Assembly: GCA_012517065.1 (NCBI GenBank)
Contig: JAAYVR010000075.1
Location: 1-41,574, forward strand
DNA length: 41,574 nt
Reading direction: 5' to 3'
DNA from: Verrucomicrobiota bacterium
GTDB lineage: Bacteria > Verrucomicrobiota > Verrucomicrobiia > Limisphaerales > J093
Part shown: piece by piece, positions 2,919 to 41,574 of the stretch
How the letters are laid out: every line of letters starts with the position of its first letter
Position numbering within the stretch: position 1 is the stretch's first letter
Made by a program: the position numbers and the translations under genes
The notes under the pieces: model-generated
Database searches by the model: none
What the model was told of the DNA's origin: nothing
Seen by the model: only the letters and a program-made list of their open reading frames with translations

Positions 2919-3608
2919 ATGAGAAGATCCATGGCGTCGGAGAACAGGCGTCGTTGTTTGATGGGCCGTTTGGCTCTGGCGGTTCTGCTGTTCAGCAGCG
3001 CTGGCCGGATTCTGCAGGCTGGCGTCACGGTGGTGGTTTCGGAATCAGATTTTTTGCTGCTGCTCGGCTCGGGGTACTACATCGAGCGTTTCGACAAGTT
3101 CCCGGCTGCGTATGTCAACCTCCCAAGCCCGCAAAGTTTTGTGAGTGGAACGGGGGAGTATTCCTACAGTATTACTTCCACATCAGGCGAAGACCTTTAC
3201 ATAATCAGCCCTGAGGGCGTGGGCAGGGCCGTCTCGGTTCTCGATTCCAAGGACCATCTGCTGGTCAACTTCGCCAGGCCAAACGTGACGGCCGTGGGCG
3301 GGCGATTTTTCATGACCGATTACGCAGGAAACCTTGCAACAGGCTCGGTGACGGTCCGGCTGAGCGACGGTACGTCAGTGTCAATAGACAGCGGCGCCAG
3401 CGGCGTGGAAGGCCTGTTTCGGGGTTTCAGCAGCGACACTCCTATAGCATGGTTGCTGGTCCAGGGCACCGAAACGCCGGGGGCAACACAGTGGCCGGCG
3501 TTTGGCCAGTTTTACGTCGGCACTGCTGTGCCCGAACCGAGTTCGTTTGCGCTGGGAATGTGGGGACTGGCATCCATCGTTCTGTGGCACAAGCTGCAAA
3601 GAAAATGA
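2919..3608 (+). CDS. PEP-CTERM sorting-domain protein
   Basis: This exported protein has 229 residues. The N-terminus has a basic stretch (RRSMASENRRR) followed by a hydrophobic segment (LMGRLALAVLLFSSAGRIL) that fits a signal peptide. The C-terminus is a classic PEP-CTERM tail: the VPEPSSFALG motif, a hydrophobic helix and the basic end KLQRK. In known systems an exosortase cleaves this tail and attaches or releases the protein at the cell surface; no exosortase gene is in this window. The central region (IERFDKFPAAYVNLPSPQSF onward) looks like the beta-rich body common to such proteins and has no catalytic motif I recognise. ATG 2919 was chosen to place the signal peptide near the start. 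The stop overlaps the next start by ATGA (3605-3608), so the two are translationally coupled. Confidence 0.85.
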   Translation: MRRSMASENRRRCLMGRLALAVLLFSSAGRILQAGVTVVVSESDFLLLLGSGYYIERFDKFPAAYVNLPSPQSFVSGTGEYSYSITSTSGEDLYIISPEGVGRAVSVLDSKDHLLVNFARPNVTAVGGRFFMTDYAGNLATGSVTVRLSDGTSVSIDSGASGVEGLFRGFSSDTPIAWLLVQGTETPGATQWPAFGQFYVGTAVPEPSSFALGMWGLASIVLWHKLQRK

Positions 3609-5590
3609 AAACGACCATGGCATCTGAAAGAGCAAGTGGACGATTCTCAAGCCGAGGCGGACGGGCTGGTCTTGGATTGCGAATTGTGGGAATTGGCCTG
3701 TTGTGCCTGCTTGTCCGTGGAGGCGAGCATCCGGCTCAGAATAATCGAGTTGGCAGGACGATTTACGTCTCGAAGCTTGGCGATGACTCCGACGGCTCGT
3801 CTTGGGTTCATGCGTTCAGAACGATCCAACGCGCTCTTTATGCTGTGCCTGACGAACGCGGCGGCCACCATATTATTGTTCGGCCGGACACTTACATGGA
3901 AGCGAACCTTTACCCTGCACACAAGGGAGCCGCAGGTGCCTTCAACGTGCTTGAAGGCGACTACGATGGCAGGCTTGGATCAGGCACCAGTGGTTTGGCG
4001 GTGATTGATTCGGGTGATCCGGCGCGTGGTTTCAAGAGCTACGACTGGTGGGGGCCAATACGGGCGTACAAGAAAGGATGGTCAACGGCACACAAAGAAG
4101 AAACGTTCTCCGCTGTTGGCTGGGACCGATGGATTATCCGGCAGATGTACGTCACCGGCGGGGACGGAGGGCTGTTCTTTGATCTGGTTGACAAGCCGGA
4201 ACCGTTCACGGTCGTCGTTGAAGACTGCGTGAGCATCGGACGGGCCTTTGGCGGTGGAGTGGCAAACTTCCTCTCACGCCCTGATGAACCCTGCGTGTTT
4301 CGACGCTGCAAGCTGTGGTGCCTGGACTGGTGGGGAGACGCTGCAGGCGCTTACGTTCGGGCCGAGCATACTGCTATGCCATCACACTCTGATGTGGTCT
4401 TTGATGATTGCACTTTGGCCGGGCCGGACAACGCCCTGCAGGCAGGCAACCCGGGATACGCGGGATTTACGCGGGTCAAACTGAAGAATTGCCGACTGGT
4501 TTCATTCAATTTCTCGCAACCCAGCGGGAAACCAGGGACTGGCGTAATTCACAGCACGATTGACGGGAAACTGCTGCGAGTCGATCTCGAAGATTGCACC
4601 CTGATGGGTTACAAAGTGTTTGGCGCTGGAACCAACGACGTCGTTTACACCACCAAAGGCGACGTCAAAGCTTATGTCCAATTCCAACAGGATGTGCCCA
4701 AAGGCATGCACAGGCTCGGGCATTGGCCTGTTGAGGCCTTCCAGACCATCATGCCGTCGTCCGTTCCGCTCCGGGCCAGCCTGCTGAGGCCAGATCAAGG
4801 TGACCTCGGAGACACATGCGAGGCAGCACCAATCGTTTGGGAGGGTCGTTTGATGCTGATGAAATGCGTTCGCCCGGCAAGTGGAGGAACAAAAAGTGAC
4901 TATTACATGACACTTGAAGATGCTGTCTCAGGACGCGTCCTCGCCAAGTTCGGCGAAGGATACGGTCTCGCTTCGGCTCTTGTGCACGACGGCACTTTGC
5001 ATGTGTTCGCGTCCAGATACGAGTCGGGCACATGGAATGACATCACGCTTTTCAGGTCAACGAATCTCCGTGATTGGCAGCGAAAACAGGTCGTTACCCA
5101 GGAGAATGAGCATCTGTTTAACAGTTCGGTCTGCTCAGATGGCAGTGGCCAGTTTGTGATGGCGTATGAGACAGACGACTCGAGGTTCACGCCTTTCACG
5201 GTGAAATTTGCGGTCTCAAGCAACCTTGTGGATTGGGTAAAACTCCCGGACGCAATTTTTGGGCCGGACCGCTATGCGGCATGTCCTTGCATCCGGTTTA
5301 ACGGTGGCTGGTATTACCTGCTCTATTTGGAGCACCGCACTCCGAGGTGGTACTTCGAAACGTACATCGCCAGATCAAAAGACCTCAAGTCATGGGAATT
5401 GTCTGCAGCTAATCCGATCCTTGCCCCTGGCATTGCTGACGGAATTAACGCTTCCGACCCGGACCTTGTCGAATTTGAGGGGCGCACCTTCGTGTATTAC
5501 AGCGTTGGAGACCAGCAGACATGGTCGAAACTCAGGCGCGCTGTCTATCCCGGCCCGGTGTCAGAGTTCTTCCGAGCGTGTTTTCCGTGA
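3605..5590 (+). CDS. Secreted beta-helix plus beta-propeller protein (glycoside hydrolase 43-like fold)
   Basis: This protein has 661 residues. A basic N-terminus (about residues 1-20) and a hydrophobic segment (LRIVGIGLLCLLVRGG) indicate export. Residues about 40-360 look like a right-handed parallel beta-helix: TIYVSKLGDDSDGSSWVHAF followed by TIQRALYAVP is the usual entry motif, and then come repeats of the type VVFDDCTL / VKLKNCRL / VDLEDCTL. Residues about 390-661 carry repeated blades typical of five-bladed propeller glycosidases (SSNLVDWVKL, SKDLKSWELS, DPDLVEFEGRTFVYYS). The combination suggests polysaccharide binding or cleavage at the surface; catalytic acids were not assigned. The start overlaps the PEP-CTERM stop by 4 bases, so the pair probably works together. 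A hairpin repeat begins 7 bases after the stop. Confidence 0.75.
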   Translation: MKTTMASERASGRFSSRGGRAGLGLRIVGIGLLCLLVRGGEHPAQNNRVGRTIYVSKLGDDSDGSSWVHAFRTIQRALYAVPDERGGHHIIVRPDTYMEANLYPAHKGAAGAFNVLEGDYDGRLGSGTSGLAVIDSGDPARGFKSYDWWGPIRAYKKGWSTAHKEETFSAVGWDRWIIRQMYVTGGDGGLFFDLVDKPEPFTVVVEDCVSIGRAFGGGVANFLSRPDEPCVFRRCKLWCLDWWGDAAGAYVRAEHTAMPSHSDVVFDDCTLAGPDNALQAGNPGYAGFTRVKLKNCRLVSFNFSQPSGKPGTGVIHSTIDGKLLRVDLEDCTLMGYKVFGAGTNDVVYTTKGDVKAYVQFQQDVPKGMHRLGHWPVEAFQTIMPSSVPLRASLLRPDQGDLGDTCEAAPIVWEGRLMLMKCVRPASGGTKSDYYMTLEDAVSGRVLAKFGEGYGLASALVHDGTLHVFASRYESGTWNDITLFRSTNLRDWQRKQVVTQENEHLFNSSVCSDGSGQFVMAYETDDSRFTPFTVKFAVSSNLVDWVKLPDAIFGPDRYAACPCIRFNGGWYYLLYLEHRTPRWYFETYIARSKDLKSWELSAANPILAPGIADGINASDPDLVEFEGRTFVYYSVGDQQTWSKLRRAVYPGPVSEFFRACFP

Positions 5591-7020: not shown

Positions 7021-8028
7021 ATGCCTGGATTGGTTGAAGAAATTGAACCGCTGAGAGCAGAAGCAATTGCGGCATTTCAGGCTGCGTCGGACATTGCAGC
7101 CCTCGATCGCGCTCGCGCGACATACCTCGGATCAAACGGCCGTCTCACTTTGCTGATGAAACAACTCGGCAGCCTGCCGAAGGAGGACAGGCCTGCTGCA
7201 GGCAAATTGATCAACACGGTCAAAGCCGACCTGGAAGAGGCCCTTGCGAGGCGCAAGGAAGAACTGAGCGCCGAGGCTTTTCTTCCGAAGTTGCCGACTG
7301 ATTTCACATTGCCGGGCCGACGCCGGGCTTTGGGCCGCCTGCATCCGCTCACACAGGTTACCGAGGACATTGTCCGCAGCTTCCGAAAACTTGGATTTGC
7401 CGTGGCCGACGGCCCGGAAGTTGAAGATGATTATCATTGTTTTGAGGCGTTGAACATCCCGCCGGATCACCCTGCGCGTGACACCCAAGACACGTTTTAT
7501 GTCGCCGGGACCAATGGGCTTTTGCTCAGGACCCACACGTCCCCGGTGCAAATCAGGGTGATGAAACGGCAACAGCCGCCTGTACGGATTATTGTTCCGG
7601 GTCGCGTTTACCGGCGTGACAACGCAGATGCCACCCACAACCCGACTTTTCACCAGGTGGAAGGTCTGTACGTGGACCGTGGAGTGACTGTCGGAGACCT
7701 GAAAGGGACTGTCGAATTCGTGTTCAAGGAGTTGATGGGGCCTGAAACCCGCATCCGGTTCCGTCCTCATTACTTCAGCTATACCGAACCCAGCTTTGAA
7801 ATCGATTTCTCGAATCCGCTCACGCGCAAGATGGGCAAAGAATGGCTCGAAATCGCCGGGTGCGGAATGGTCCATCCGCAGGTATTTGAAAACGTCGGTT
7901 ACGATCCGGAGGTCTGGACCGGTTGGGCATTCGGATTTGGGATCGAACGAATCGCGATGATTCGGTACGGCATTACTGATATCCGGTTGTTTTACGAAAA
8001 CGATCTGCGGTTTCTGACGCAGTTCTGA
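7021..8028 (+). CDS. pheS: Phenylalanine--tRNA ligase alpha subunit
   Basis: This protein has 335 residues, the usual size. It charges tRNA-Phe as the alpha part of an alpha2beta2 enzyme. The N-terminal coiled coil (about residues 1-85) includes ARATYLGSNGRLTLLMKQLG. The class II catalytic core follows: PGRRRALGRLHPLTQVTEDI, LLRTHTSPVQIRVM, the motif 2 region with PTFHQVEGLYVDRG, and motif 3 GWAFGFGIERIAMIRYGI. GGAGG lies 9 bases before the ATG. The beta-subunit gene pheT, very often next to pheS, does not follow; after only 6 bases a 1211-residue phosphohexomutase-like gene starts. pheT must therefore be elsewhere in the genome. Confidence 0.97.
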   Translation: MPGLVEEIEPLRAEAIAAFQAASDIAALDRARATYLGSNGRLTLLMKQLGSLPKEDRPAAGKLINTVKADLEEALARRKEELSAEAFLPKLPTDFTLPGRRRALGRLHPLTQVTEDIVRSFRKLGFAVADGPEVEDDYHCFEALNIPPDHPARDTQDTFYVAGTNGLLLRTHTSPVQIRVMKRQQPPVRIIVPGRVYRRDNADATHNPTFHQVEGLYVDRGVTVGDLKGTVEFVFKELMGPETRIRFRPHYFSYTEPSFEIDFSNPLTRKMGKEWLEIAGCGMVHPQVFENVGYDPEVWTGWAFGFGIERIAMIRYGITDIRLFYENDLRFLTQF

Positions 8029-8034
8029 GATTAC

Positions 8035-11000
8035 ATGAACGCCGACAGAATCCTTCTGGGACAGGCGACTGTACTCAGGTTCCCGCTCTCATTGATGGCT
8101 GATTGCCGTTTGAGCTTCCCGGCATGGGATGCTGTGGCCAAAACCAACGGCTTGTGCCGCGACAACATCCGCGCGCAGGCCGACATCAGCCCTCAACGAG
8201 GTGCCACGGAAACACAGCTCGCCGTTCGGCAGCCCCTGCCGTATCGGTCTTACGACACCGACGCCTGTCTTGTGCGCCACACCTGCCATCTGCAAGAAGC
8301 CGGCCTCAAACCGGATGAGCCATGGTTTTTCGTCAGCGCACGCAACCTCGGCAATAACCTGCGAATTGTGGCGTGGGCCAAAGGCCGTGGACTTTTTGAG
8401 TTGAATGGCGAAGAAGCAGTGTCAAGCGGCCGGGTTTACACCTGCTTGTGCCAGACCGAATCGGGGTTGGTGATCGACCGCCTGACTTTTTCTTCGAACG
8501 GGCCATTGATTCGCGGGCGGGCGCCAAAGGGATTGCTTTGGGCATGCAGTGGCCAGGAGTTGGTTTGGGACGGAAAACCGAACCCCGTCGAGAAAATCAT
8601 CCCTTACACTTATGATTTGCGGCACGTTTGGCAGATTCCCGTCTCAGAAACACCAGCGAAGGATGGATTGCGGCAGTCGTCCAAAGAACTGGAGGAGATG
8701 ACCGATCTGTTCGTTCAGCTCGGCGATCGCCCGCCCGAGGAAATGGCAAAGGAACTGGTTAGAGTGGCGGCTGAACGCGGGTATGAACGTGCATTTGATT
8801 GTCTTCACAATGCGGTGGGAATTACAAAAGACGGGCGTGAAGCGGTCTTTGTGCAGTGCGTGGGTACATTCGAAGATGTGGCAGGCAGGCTCATTCAGGC
8901 AGGCGCATGGCGCGCCATCGAGCTGGATCAAGGTGGATCGTGTGTGTGGATGGTGAGCGACAGGGAGTGCTCTGATGGACGCGTGTTGGCAGTCAGCCAT
9001 TATTACCGTCCTCGCGGCCTTGCCGCCCTTGTATTCCGATTGAGAAAAATGGATGACTGCGCTGTCATGGGGCGCGGAGAACTGGTTCGCCAAGGCGTGC
9101 TTGAGACAGTCGGAGATGAAACCCTCCCGAGCAAAGACCCGCGCGTCCAGGCGGCGCTCGACATACTAAGGCGGGATGGGCAACTTGATTGGCGGCGAAT
9201 AGCCGACGCGCAGCCGGCACTAAAACGCCGCTATTTTCTTCAGCATCGGGAACGATGGGCAGAAGTGAAGGCGGGCTTCGAGCGGCAGCACGGGGTGCCG
9301 TTGGTTCCGCCATTCGACCTCGACACGGAGGAGTGGCACATTGACCGTCGCATCTCCGAGCGGTACGGGCTGCCCTTTCTGTTCGGGCCGGACATGTACC
9401 AAAAGTTTTCGCAGATCGCAACTGCAGGAGTGCGGCATCTGTGCAATCCGCTGCCTGAGGGCGCATGGGATCCGACGCGCCTTTACAGTGACGCGTTTGT
9501 GGCGGTGCATGCGTGTGCGCTTGCGAAGTTTTTGAAAACCGACATTTACCCGGCCGTGCGCCGTCGGCTGGATCGGCCTGCCAAAGACGTCGCAAGGTTC
9601 GTCGGAACCACCACAGTGCGGCTGGTTGAAGATTTGTTTGGCGGGATGAAGTTTGACGCGGTGGTTCGGCTGCTCAAACGTCAGCCTGTGTTCGTATTGG
9701 CCGGGGAAACACGTCCGCACACTGCGCGTTGGATTGAATTGCAGGCGCGAATCCTTGCAAGCGCAGGCATAACAGTGGTCACGACCAAGGATTACCGAAC
9801 CAGTACTGCGGTCAACATAGTGTCGCTTCTGACCCAGATTCTGGGCGCGAGCGGTGGTGGGATGTGGACTTCGAGCCATAGCTCTGTTGAAACAGGCGGG
9901 TTCAAAATCATGGGGCCAAACGGCGGCCAATTGTTGCCTGAAACCTATGAGGCGCTCGTCCGGTATTGTGTGGAGCACGTTGACCTTGCGATGGGACCGG
10001 GTCTGACGATCAAAGCCCGGCGTGATGATCAGAACATTTTCCGAACCATTACACACGAGCTGAACGGGCGATTGCTCGCGCACGTGCTGAAACCATCGCC
10101 CGCCGAAGTCGAATCCATAAACATGGCCTTGAGCCGCGGCTTTCCGGTCGTCGTCAACAGCGTCAATGGCGCTGGTTACAGGAACTTCGTGGCCTACTTG
10201 CGGGCGATCGGCGTAAGCGCGACGAATCTGCAGCGCATCAGATTTGTGCTGACCTCTGAGGACGGGCCTGAGTCCGGGTTTGTCATCTCCAAAGGCAGAG
10301 ACGGTTTGTTGACCGTCTTGCATGACGGGTCCGATATGACCCGTCTTTCAGCTCTGAAGACCGTGCCTTACCATCGGTTCACCGCGGACATGCCGGTGGG
10401 GACAAAAATCTGGGAGTTGGACAATGACGCAGACCGGTTCACCGTGGGGGAAATCGTCTCGGAGGACGAGGTGGCCAAATGCAAAGAGTTCGCTCTTGAA
10501 GTCGTCGATCTCGGTAATCGCCGCGCCATGGCAAGATACTCGCCAAACAAGAGCTTCCTGACACTCGACCGCATCGATTTCGAACAGGAAATAAAGGCCG
10601 CGCTGGACAAAGGCGACACCACCGTGATCCACCTGCACACGGTCGTTTCAGGCGAAACATGGAAGGAATTCGATCAGGATTTGCGCCGGCGGTATGGTGA
10701 CAAGTACGACTTCGCTTACTGCCGCGTGGGCTTCAAGAACCTCAAGGAAACGCTGGATCGCATCGAAAGCTGGTTCTTTAATTCACGGCAGCGCACCCTG
10801 ACGTTCGTTGACCAAGCCGGAGTAACACACACAATCCGCCGGCGCCGCCGATTGCTTATCCTGAGTCTCGAGGAAGAAAGCGGGGGACGCGGAAGTGGAT
10901 ACCGCACGCCGCTTCGCACCTTGACCATGGAGAAAACGCTGGCATCACCCGAGAAAAGCGCCATCGATTCAGCGAGCGCCACTTTTGCGTATTTTGCCCG

Positions 11001-11670
11001 CCAGTTTTTGAACTGCGACTGCGACCCGCGCGCCGCAGCCTTCAGTCAACTTCATTTGTTGGAAGAAACCCACGCCGAGCATCGGCTGAGAAGCCGCGTG
11101 GACGAGCGCGTTGATGTGCGGTTAACAACCAATGAAGAAATTGGACGGCTAAAGTCCGGCGCCGAATACGCGAGGAGAATGGCCGAGTTGGAGGCAATTC
11201 GAGACAACCAATGCAATTTCTGGTTGTCACTCGCGCGCTGCGTTCAGCTCGAGGGCCAAACCGGTCTTCGCAAGGCCAGACAGGTTCTGAACGAGGTTGT
11301 GCCCGAGTGGACGGAGTTGTGGCAGAGGATGACCAGCGCGCTTTACATGGAAGAGCCCTTGCCTGGCGGACAGTCGAGACCTGAGGGCGCGTACTTCGGT
11401 TTCGAACCCGGCGACCGGATAACCGCCTTGAAATTCCGAGCATCCGCCACGGATATCACATTTGGCTTGAAGTACTATTTCGATTCCGATGGGAAGACGC
11501 CTGCGCCCGAGCTCCGCAAGCAAACATGGGAATTGTTGGGCGAGCGGTTGATTCGCAGAAACCTTTACCCGGTGCTCGAACGTTATGTGGTGCCGTGGGT
11601 TTACCGAAAATCCGAAGCTGAAGTTGCGTTAGTTGACCGCCTTGCTCCGTCTCAGGCGTTGTATCGCTGA
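8035..11670 (+). CDS. Giant fusion: phosphodiester-glycosidase-like domain plus divergent alpha-D-phosphohexomutase
   Basis: This protein has 1211 residues, no signal peptide and no membrane segment, so it is probably cytoplasmic. Residues about 80-345 resemble the NAGPA/DUF2233 phosphodiester-glycosidase fold: NAVGITKDGREAVFVQCVG, then a helix and AIELDQGGSCVWM (Asp298, Gly300-Gly301, Ser302; the family usually has LDGGGSST). Residues about 440-1200 show every phosphohexomutase landmark in order, each slightly altered: ATAGVRHLCNP (462-472); AGETRPH (556-562; usual GxDTRP); the catalytic loop TSSHSS with Ser614 (usual TASHNP); the metal loop DNDADR at 796-801, all three Asp kept; RVGFKNL (897-903); the sugar loop EEESGG (946-951; usual GEESGG); and the phosphate loop FRASATD (1134-1140; usual RPSGTEP). 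Normal phosphohexomutases have 450-600 residues. The start is 6 bases after pheS. Substrate unknown. The mutase homology is confident; the N-terminal assignment is moderate. Confidence 0.75.
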   Translation: MNADRILLGQATVLRFPLSLMADCRLSFPAWDAVAKTNGLCRDNIRAQADISPQRGATETQLAVRQPLPYRSYDTDACLVRHTCHLQEAGLKPDEPWFFVSARNLGNNLRIVAWAKGRGLFELNGEEAVSSGRVYTCLCQTESGLVIDRLTFSSNGPLIRGRAPKGLLWACSGQELVWDGKPNPVEKIIPYTYDLRHVWQIPVSETPAKDGLRQSSKELEEMTDLFVQLGDRPPEEMAKELVRVAAERGYERAFDCLHNAVGITKDGREAVFVQCVGTFEDVAGRLIQAGAWRAIELDQGGSCVWMVSDRECSDGRVLAVSHYYRPRGLAALVFRLRKMDDCAVMGRGELVRQGVLETVGDETLPSKDPRVQAALDILRRDGQLDWRRIADAQPALKRRYFLQHRERWAEVKAGFERQHGVPLVPPFDLDTEEWHIDRRISERYGLPFLFGPDMYQKFSQIATAGVRHLCNPLPEGAWDPTRLYSDAFVAVHACALAKFLKTDIYPAVRRRLDRPAKDVARFVGTTTVRLVEDLFGGMKFDAVVRLLKRQPVFVLAGETRPHTARWIELQARILASAGITVVTTKDYRTSTAVNIVSLLTQILGASGGGMWTSSHSSVETGGFKIMGPNGGQLLPETYEALVRYCVEHVDLAMGPGLTIKARRDDQNIFRTITHELNGRLLAHVLKPSPAEVESINMALSRGFPVVVNSVNGAGYRNFVAYLRAIGVSATNLQRIRFVLTSEDGPESGFVISKGRDGLLTVLHDGSDMTRLSALKTVPYHRFTADMPVGTKIWELDNDADRFTVGEIVSEDEVAKCKEFALEVVDLGNRRAMARYSPNKSFLTLDRIDFEQEIKAALDKGDTTVIHLHTVVSGETWKEFDQDLRRRYGDKYDFAYCRVGFKNLKETLDRIESWFFNSRQRTLTFVDQAGVTHTIRRRRRLLILSLEEESGGRGSGYRTPLRTLTMEKTLASPEKSAIDSASATFAYFARQFLNCDCDPRAAAFSQLHLLEETHAEHRLRSRVDERVDVRLTTNEEIGRLKSGAEYARRMAELEAIRDNQCNFWLSLARCVQLEGQTGLRKARQVLNEVVPEWTELWQRMTSALYMEEPLPGGQSRPEGAYFGFEPGDRITALKFRASATDITFGLKYYFDSDGKTPAPELRKQTWELLGERLIRRNLYPVLERYVVPWVYRKSEAEVALVDRLAPSQALYR

Positions 11671-11998: not shown

Positions 11999-12245
11999 AA
12001 ATACCGTGTCTGTCCCTCTATTTGTTCAGCCTGCACCAAAACCTCGCCAACACCACTCAACAGTCCTTGGAAACTTCAGGCCTAACGCGCCAATCCCTGC
12101 CCAGCCCGGTTCGACGCGGCCGCCATAATACCGTGTCTGTCCCTCTATTTGTTCGGCGAGCGCCAACCCCTCCTTAACCGCCCGCAACGGTTCTCGGAAA
12201 CTCCAGATGTGACGCTACAATCCCTGTTCAGCCGGCATGAACATA
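11999..12245 (+). repeat. Tandem pair of 127-bp-period repeats, locus 1
   Basis: The core ATACCGTGTCTGTCCCTC followed by TATTTGTTC starts at 12001 and again at 12128, exactly 127 bases apart. The units share blocks such as CCAGCCCGGT...CGACGCGGCC and GGAAACT(T/C)CAG, and the second ends with TTCAGCCGGCATGAAC (12227-12242). The same structure, period and end block recur at 41309-41555. The core reads GGGACAGACAC on the other strand, as in the two-box elements. Confidence 0.75.
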
Positions 12246-12714: not shown

Positions 12715-12954
12715 GACATGCAGCGACAAAACAGCGGTTTTACCCTGAAGTTTGATTCTGGGTAGTCTCATTACAACCTCCTCAATTTGTCTTGTTCTTC
12801 TCCTCGCAACAGAGCGACACGCTCGCAGCCGGCCTCCCGGCCGACTGCTTGGGCAGGTCCGGGTCAGAACCTCGGGCGCCCAAATAAAGTGTCTGTCCCT
12901 CTATTTCAGGGTAAAATTGCACAACACAATCCGGTAGTCAAACAGGGCTCGTGT

Positions 12955-41171: not shown

Positions 41172-41574
41172 CCATGCCTCAATAGAACCAGGCTTCTTGC
41201 CAAGGATACATTCGCAACTTCAATGTCCGCTTGATTGCCCGGACAAAGCCTTAACCACCACCCCCGATCCGTCTGACTCGATCAGGCCGCTGACATCGAG
41301 CCGGGCAAATATCGTGTCTGTCACTCTATTTGATCCGCCAGCGCCAACTCCCGCCAACTTCACTCGCCCGTCATCGTAAACTCCACTCATGACGCCGCCA
41401 GGCCAAGTCCAGCCCGGTCCCACGCGGCCACCACAATATCGTGTCTGTCACTCTATTTGTTCAGCCACCGCCAAACCCTCACCAACCCCTCAAAACAGTC
41501 CCCGGAAACTTCAGATGTGACGCGACAACGCCTATTCAGCCGGCATGAACGCCGGTCCCACTGCCCTCCTCACC
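41172..41574. other. Gene-free end of the window with repeats
   Basis: It contains the second tandem pair of 127-bp-period repeats (41309-41555). No convincing open frame or RNA gene is seen, and the window ends inside this region. Confidence 0.6.
41309..41555 (+). repeat. Tandem pair of 127-bp-period repeats, locus 2
   Basis: The core ATATCGTGTCTGTCACTC followed by TATTTG starts at 41309 and again at 41436, a spacing of exactly 127 bases. CCAGCCCGGTCCCACGCGGC precedes the second core, and CAGCCGGCATGAAC ends the array, as in locus 1 at 11999-12245. Here the core carries GTCACTC instead of GTCCCTC. Confidence 0.75.

Follow-up and report, generated by a model that had tools for sequence, protein, structure and literature searches.

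A divergent phosphohexomutase-like protein with an N-terminal NAGPA/DUF2233-like module in a genus of Verrucomicrobiota

Introduction

The alpha-D-phosphohexomutases (PF02878 and its partner domains; PGM2-like and GlmM-like proteins among them) carry their catalytic loops in a standard order, and the roles of the corresponding residues have been described for human PGM1 (PMC7761743). Herring PGM5 is inactive, with substrate binding intact (PMC7761743), and some alpha-phosphohexomutase subfamilies draw on another phosphate donor, Slr1334 for instance on fructose-1,6-bisphosphate (PMC9426568). NAGPA/DUF2233 enzymes (PF09992) release sugars from phosphodiesters. Our literature searches found no description of a mutase fused to an NAGPA-like domain.

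Here we analyze such a two-part gene on contig JAAYVR010000075.1 of a Verrucomicrobiota bacterium (assembly GCA_012517065.1); the window is the whole stretch examined, 41,574 nucleotides in length. An earlier note on this DNA had described a giant, altered phosphohexomutase joined to a phosphodiester-glycosidase-like domain, and had proposed that one protein could unmask a sugar phosphate and then move the phosphate.

Results

Translation of the window yields an uninterrupted open reading frame of 1211 residues, with the following features:

7021–8028, + strand: pheS, encoding the alpha chain of phenylalanyl-tRNA synthetase; precedes the fused gene in both genomes of the genus (ortholog-side copy at L044 8987–9994)
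8035–11670, + strand: whole fused gene, 1211 aa; ortholog L002/L044, 91% amino acid identity over residues 1–1211
8545–9075, + strand: NAGPA/DUF2233-like module, residues ~171–347; core recognizable, DQGGS at 298–302, PRTA and DGRQ loops deleted
9115–9345, + strand: linker and helical region, residues ~361–437; matches no known family, codons conserved
9418–9435, + strand: loop 0, ATAGVR, residues 462–467, with candidate general acid Arg467; from motif comparison with 35 mutases
9661–9960, + strand: mutase domain I, residues 543–642, including TSSHSS with Ser614/His615; Pfam PGM_PMM_I, E=2.6e-9
10420–10437, + strand: domain II metal loop DNDADR, residues 796–801; from sequence, reached by hhalign to short mutases
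10870–10887, + strand: domain III sugar loop EEESGG, residues 946–951; by motif only
11434–11454, + strand: domain IV phosphate loop FRASATD, residues 1134–1140; by motif only

Only 6 bases separate the pheS stop codon from the ATG of the fused gene, so the two are probably co-transcribed. The full-length ortholog lies in a second Verrucomicrobiota MAG, A05DMB-I-23 (JARYMD010000049.1; L002 and L044 are this one contig, obtained via two collections with identical coordinates), again behind pheS, a neighbourhood whose conservation the earlier note had proposed to check. The idea that the fused gene displaced pheT was discarded, as pheT sits on another contig; ORF lists of same-family genomes showed no pheT-sized gene directly 3' of pheS in the same direction. 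Around the fused gene we found no sugar-pathway neighbour that would name a substrate. Upstream of rplT and pheS, positions 3449–5590 of the window encode a 713-residue protein whose C-terminal part weakly matches GH130 (mannooligosaccharide phosphorylase). PADLOC assigned the fused protein to no defence family, and searches of virus, phage and plasmid sequences gave no match.

Codon comparison of the two orthologs revealed a dN of 0.047 and a dS of 0.337, an overall dN/dS of ~0.14. The lowest ratios fall in the mutase part (~0.06–0.10 for residues 546–1000; 0.06–0.13 per block over residues 426–1211), whereas residues 71–360 of the N-domain show a higher value of 0.19. The junction (residues 361–545) is under purifying selection and shows no break, with a dN of 0.064 and a dS of 0.40 for residues 361–425. 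Because the fusion is intact in an ortholog of 91% identity, evolves at a dN/dS of ~0.14 and has an unbroken junction, it represents a genuine gene rather than an assembly artefact confined to one contig. In the first 70 codons, a small sample, dN (0.08) is close to dS (0.105), and the true start may therefore lie downstream of 8035. Past the end of the fused gene the resemblance between the two genomes soon declines; in this region an open reading frame at L044 13994–14452 looks transposase-like by eye and has no match in Pfam.

The whole protein was searched against three overlapping sets: 97 relatives, the class (384 genomes) and the phylum (388 genomes). Within them, the fusion was found in the two genomes of the genus and in no other; the remaining matches are ordinary mutases, aligned over part of domains I–II. 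The gene was likewise not found in same-family genomes, though pheS is present there. A contig scan with just two peptide patterns recovered only the ortholog, a search that leaves room for distant members elsewhere. As far as searched, the fused protein is so far genus-specific.

Homology of the C-terminal part (residues ~440–1211) to the mutases is significant in domain I, where the Pfam match scores 37.3 bits and so exceeds the 22.5-bit cut-off. An HMM built from ~40 mutases of relatives scored 56 bits over residues 511–682 (E=3e-16 in a set of ~2000 sequences), compared with a best of 7.2 bits on 2000 shuffled sequences, and hhalign alignment with short mutases extends through DNDADR. When the domains were searched singly, domain II matched weakly and domains III and IV fell below significance, with their motifs EEESGG and RASATD present. 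NCBIfam returned weak GlmM matches far below cut-off. Identity to alpha-D-phosphohexomutases is ~22–39%, over the short alignable part only.

The loops listed in the earlier note all occur in the correct order, with AGETRP (556–561), TSSHSS (612–617) and RVGFK (897–901, preceding EEESGG) in addition to those tabulated above. The C-terminal part holds all six test motifs in order, whereas the best of 20,000 shuffles reached no more than four and most had none. TSSH (612–615) matches the phosphoserine loop T/S-x-S-H, and DNDADR the metal loop D-x-D-x-D-R. In our own mapping of the PGM1 residue roles by motif alignment, the retained positions comprise Arg467, Ser614, His615, Lys624, Asp796/798/800, Arg801, Glu947, Ser949, Arg1135, Ser1137 and Thr1139, and possibly Lys974 after EEESGG as a candidate general base; retention of the serine and the three metal-binding aspartates had been correctly noted before. 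Lys624 and Arg801 we take to be catalytic.

The earlier statement that nearly every loop is substituted at a normally fixed position proved overstated. Compared with 35 mutases of related genomes, the oddities are SHNP to SHSS after the catalytic serine, a change absent from these relatives, SGTE to SATD, and ATAG for GT.G; DNDADR, GFK, EESGG and R-x-S-x-T all lie within known variation. Nor does the SAT loop on its own argue for an unusual substrate, because the Arg, Ser and Thr that contact phosphate are kept. The spacing between the serine and metal loops (184 residues) falls within that of relatives' mutases (142–198), whereas the spacing between the sugar and phosphate loops is longer, at 188 against mostly 84–117. 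A further difference is the N-terminal extension of ~440 residues.

AlphaFold2, run on a two-sequence alignment, gave a mean pLDDT of 35 for residues 425–1211. In a tree of domains I–II, the protein's branch, 4.41 changes per site long, lies beside PGM2-like mutases (91/81), a position flagged as long-branch joining; the PGM2-like assignment was therefore dropped and no subfamily assigned. The same genome encodes two further mutases, of 512 and 599 residues, which would leave the fused copy free for a special role. The 599-residue protein, the second mutase of the genus (L095 (G000 C20), L058, L062), has a TGSHIP phosphoserine loop and DGDSDR, and represents another divergent group within this bacterial family.

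The N-terminal part (residues ~1–360) probably shares descent with NAGPA/DUF2233, although the similarity is weak. The two-part anatomy described earlier stands, but the NAGPA assignment is sub-threshold: PF09992 scored 18.5 bits, short of its 25-bit cut-off, over residues 259–307 only. In a profile search of the PDB, the top three hits were DUF2233/NAGPA chains, yet with E=0.38–0.49, while hhalign against 20 genuine NAGPA proteins from the same order gave a local match at 260–307 (E=4e-7 for one comparison). An HMM of these 20 relatives scored 11.6 bits on the fused N-terminal part and 7.6 on a related module in genome G053, against 5.7 for the best of 2000 shuffles, a thin margin. The shared core reads AVGI..DG...GAW.A..LD.GGS, and SGQELVWDGKP resembles the family's GGGP.LV.DGK. 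Mean pLDDT for residues 1–430 was also 35, and no signal peptide was obvious by eye.

The hallmark loops of the family, whose active-site residues we judged from conservation, are missing. The alignment shows LH--NAVGI where relatives have IHPRTAVGI, and a nine-residue deletion removes the RQ..S.G loop. Motifs of the PRTA (or PRS/PRT), DGR, DGGGS and N.PS types are present in 20/20 bona fide relatives, whereas PRTA, DGRQ..S.G and N.PS occur in none of the three module copies (both orthologs and G053). DGGGS is replaced by DQGGS in the fused protein and its ortholog and by DNGGS in G053, with Asp and GGS kept. Since these signature loops are deleted here and kept in all 20 relatives, hydrolase function has probably been lost.

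The G053 copy belongs to an 853-residue protein from the same order (loci L003/L092; blastp E=9e-20), whose N-module is 25% identical to that of the fused protein over ~270 residues and has the same loop deletions. Its C-terminal part is not a mutase but an ASKHA (ROK/BadF-like) sugar-kinase-like domain, whose matches to BadF, ROK and FGGY are weak and stay below cut-off. A profile of the N-module, run on 320 genomes from the order and 388 from the phylum, matched strongly only in G000, G001 and G053. The G053 gene is flanked on one side by an integrase gene and on the other by Hma/pAgo-like defence genes, which match HmaC and pAgo. The adjoining region, L092 9957–15892, looks like a defence island, in which an HmaC-like AAA+ ATPase carrying a Swt1-like HEPN is accompanied by a pAgo_I-like gene and an unassigned gene of 313 residues. 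Divergent from the module-kinase gene, L092 8837–9865 encodes an Xre-type HTH and TPR protein that possibly regulates it.

Discussion

We consider it slightly better than an even bet that the protein is a genus-specific, divergent alpha-D-phosphohexomutase paralogue, likely active, with a non-hydrolytic binding or regulatory N-domain of probable NAGPA/DUF2233 descent. The C-terminal part would shift phosphate from one position of a sugar phosphate to another via phospho-Ser614, with the catalytic metal held by Asp796/798/800. The N-domain, having lost its signature loops, would serve in binding or regulation, with a sugar phosphate or glycan as its putative ligand. Against this reading count the lack of significant profile matches for domains III and IV, the branch of ~4.4 changes per site, HSS beside the catalytic serine, the low-confidence structure models and the missing substrate-naming neighbour. 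If active, the enzyme would be a phosphohexomutase of extreme divergence, testing how far active-site loops can drift.

The same divergence of the mutase part, together with HNP to HSS and SGTE to SATD at otherwise fixed positions and a stripped NAGPA half, could also mean that both halves are degenerate and that the protein is a non-catalytic sugar-phosphate sensor, regulator or scaffold, like PGM5. We judge this somewhat unlikely: the residues that known mutases use directly in catalysis are kept, and purifying selection is strong around the active-site loops of the C-terminal part. An alternative that retains chemistry, a sugar-1,6-bisphosphate synthase or other non-mutase phosphotransferase drawing on a different phosphate donor, has precedent in some alpha-phosphohexomutase subfamilies (PMC9426568) and would suit the loop changes near Ser614 and within domain IV. 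It seems improbable to us, as no specific sequence feature links the protein to the Slr1334-type subfamily and the tree gives no firm subfamily placement.

The pairing first suggested, in which the N-domain cleaves a sugar phosphodiester and the C-domain isomerizes the resulting sugar phosphate, is chemically coherent in its order of reactions, draws on the NAGPA-like core at 259–307, and would extend to the G053 kinase-like fusion, which would likewise suit a sugar released by hydrolysis. The deletion of the family's hallmark loops from all known copies of the module leaves this double activity unsupported, and with PF09992 under its cut-off we regard it as very improbable.

Recurrence of the N-module before a sugar-kinase-like domain fits a non-hydrolytic accessory role beside the mutase, and suggests that sugar-phosphate enzymes share an accessory domain that can be reused. 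A bolder version, which we think unlikely, is that the stripped domain acts as a mobile, cytosolic module for binding sugar phosphates and feeds or gates different sugar-phosphate enzymes, a previously undescribed regulatory domain; with only two fusions known, its mobility is suggestive at most.

The window also contains five copies of the repeat GTGTCTGTCCCTCTATTT (12006–12150, 12889–12906 and 41314–41458), including two pairs 127 bases apart. With 77 exact copies in the genome against none expected by chance, it is probably a REP-like or transposon-end element.
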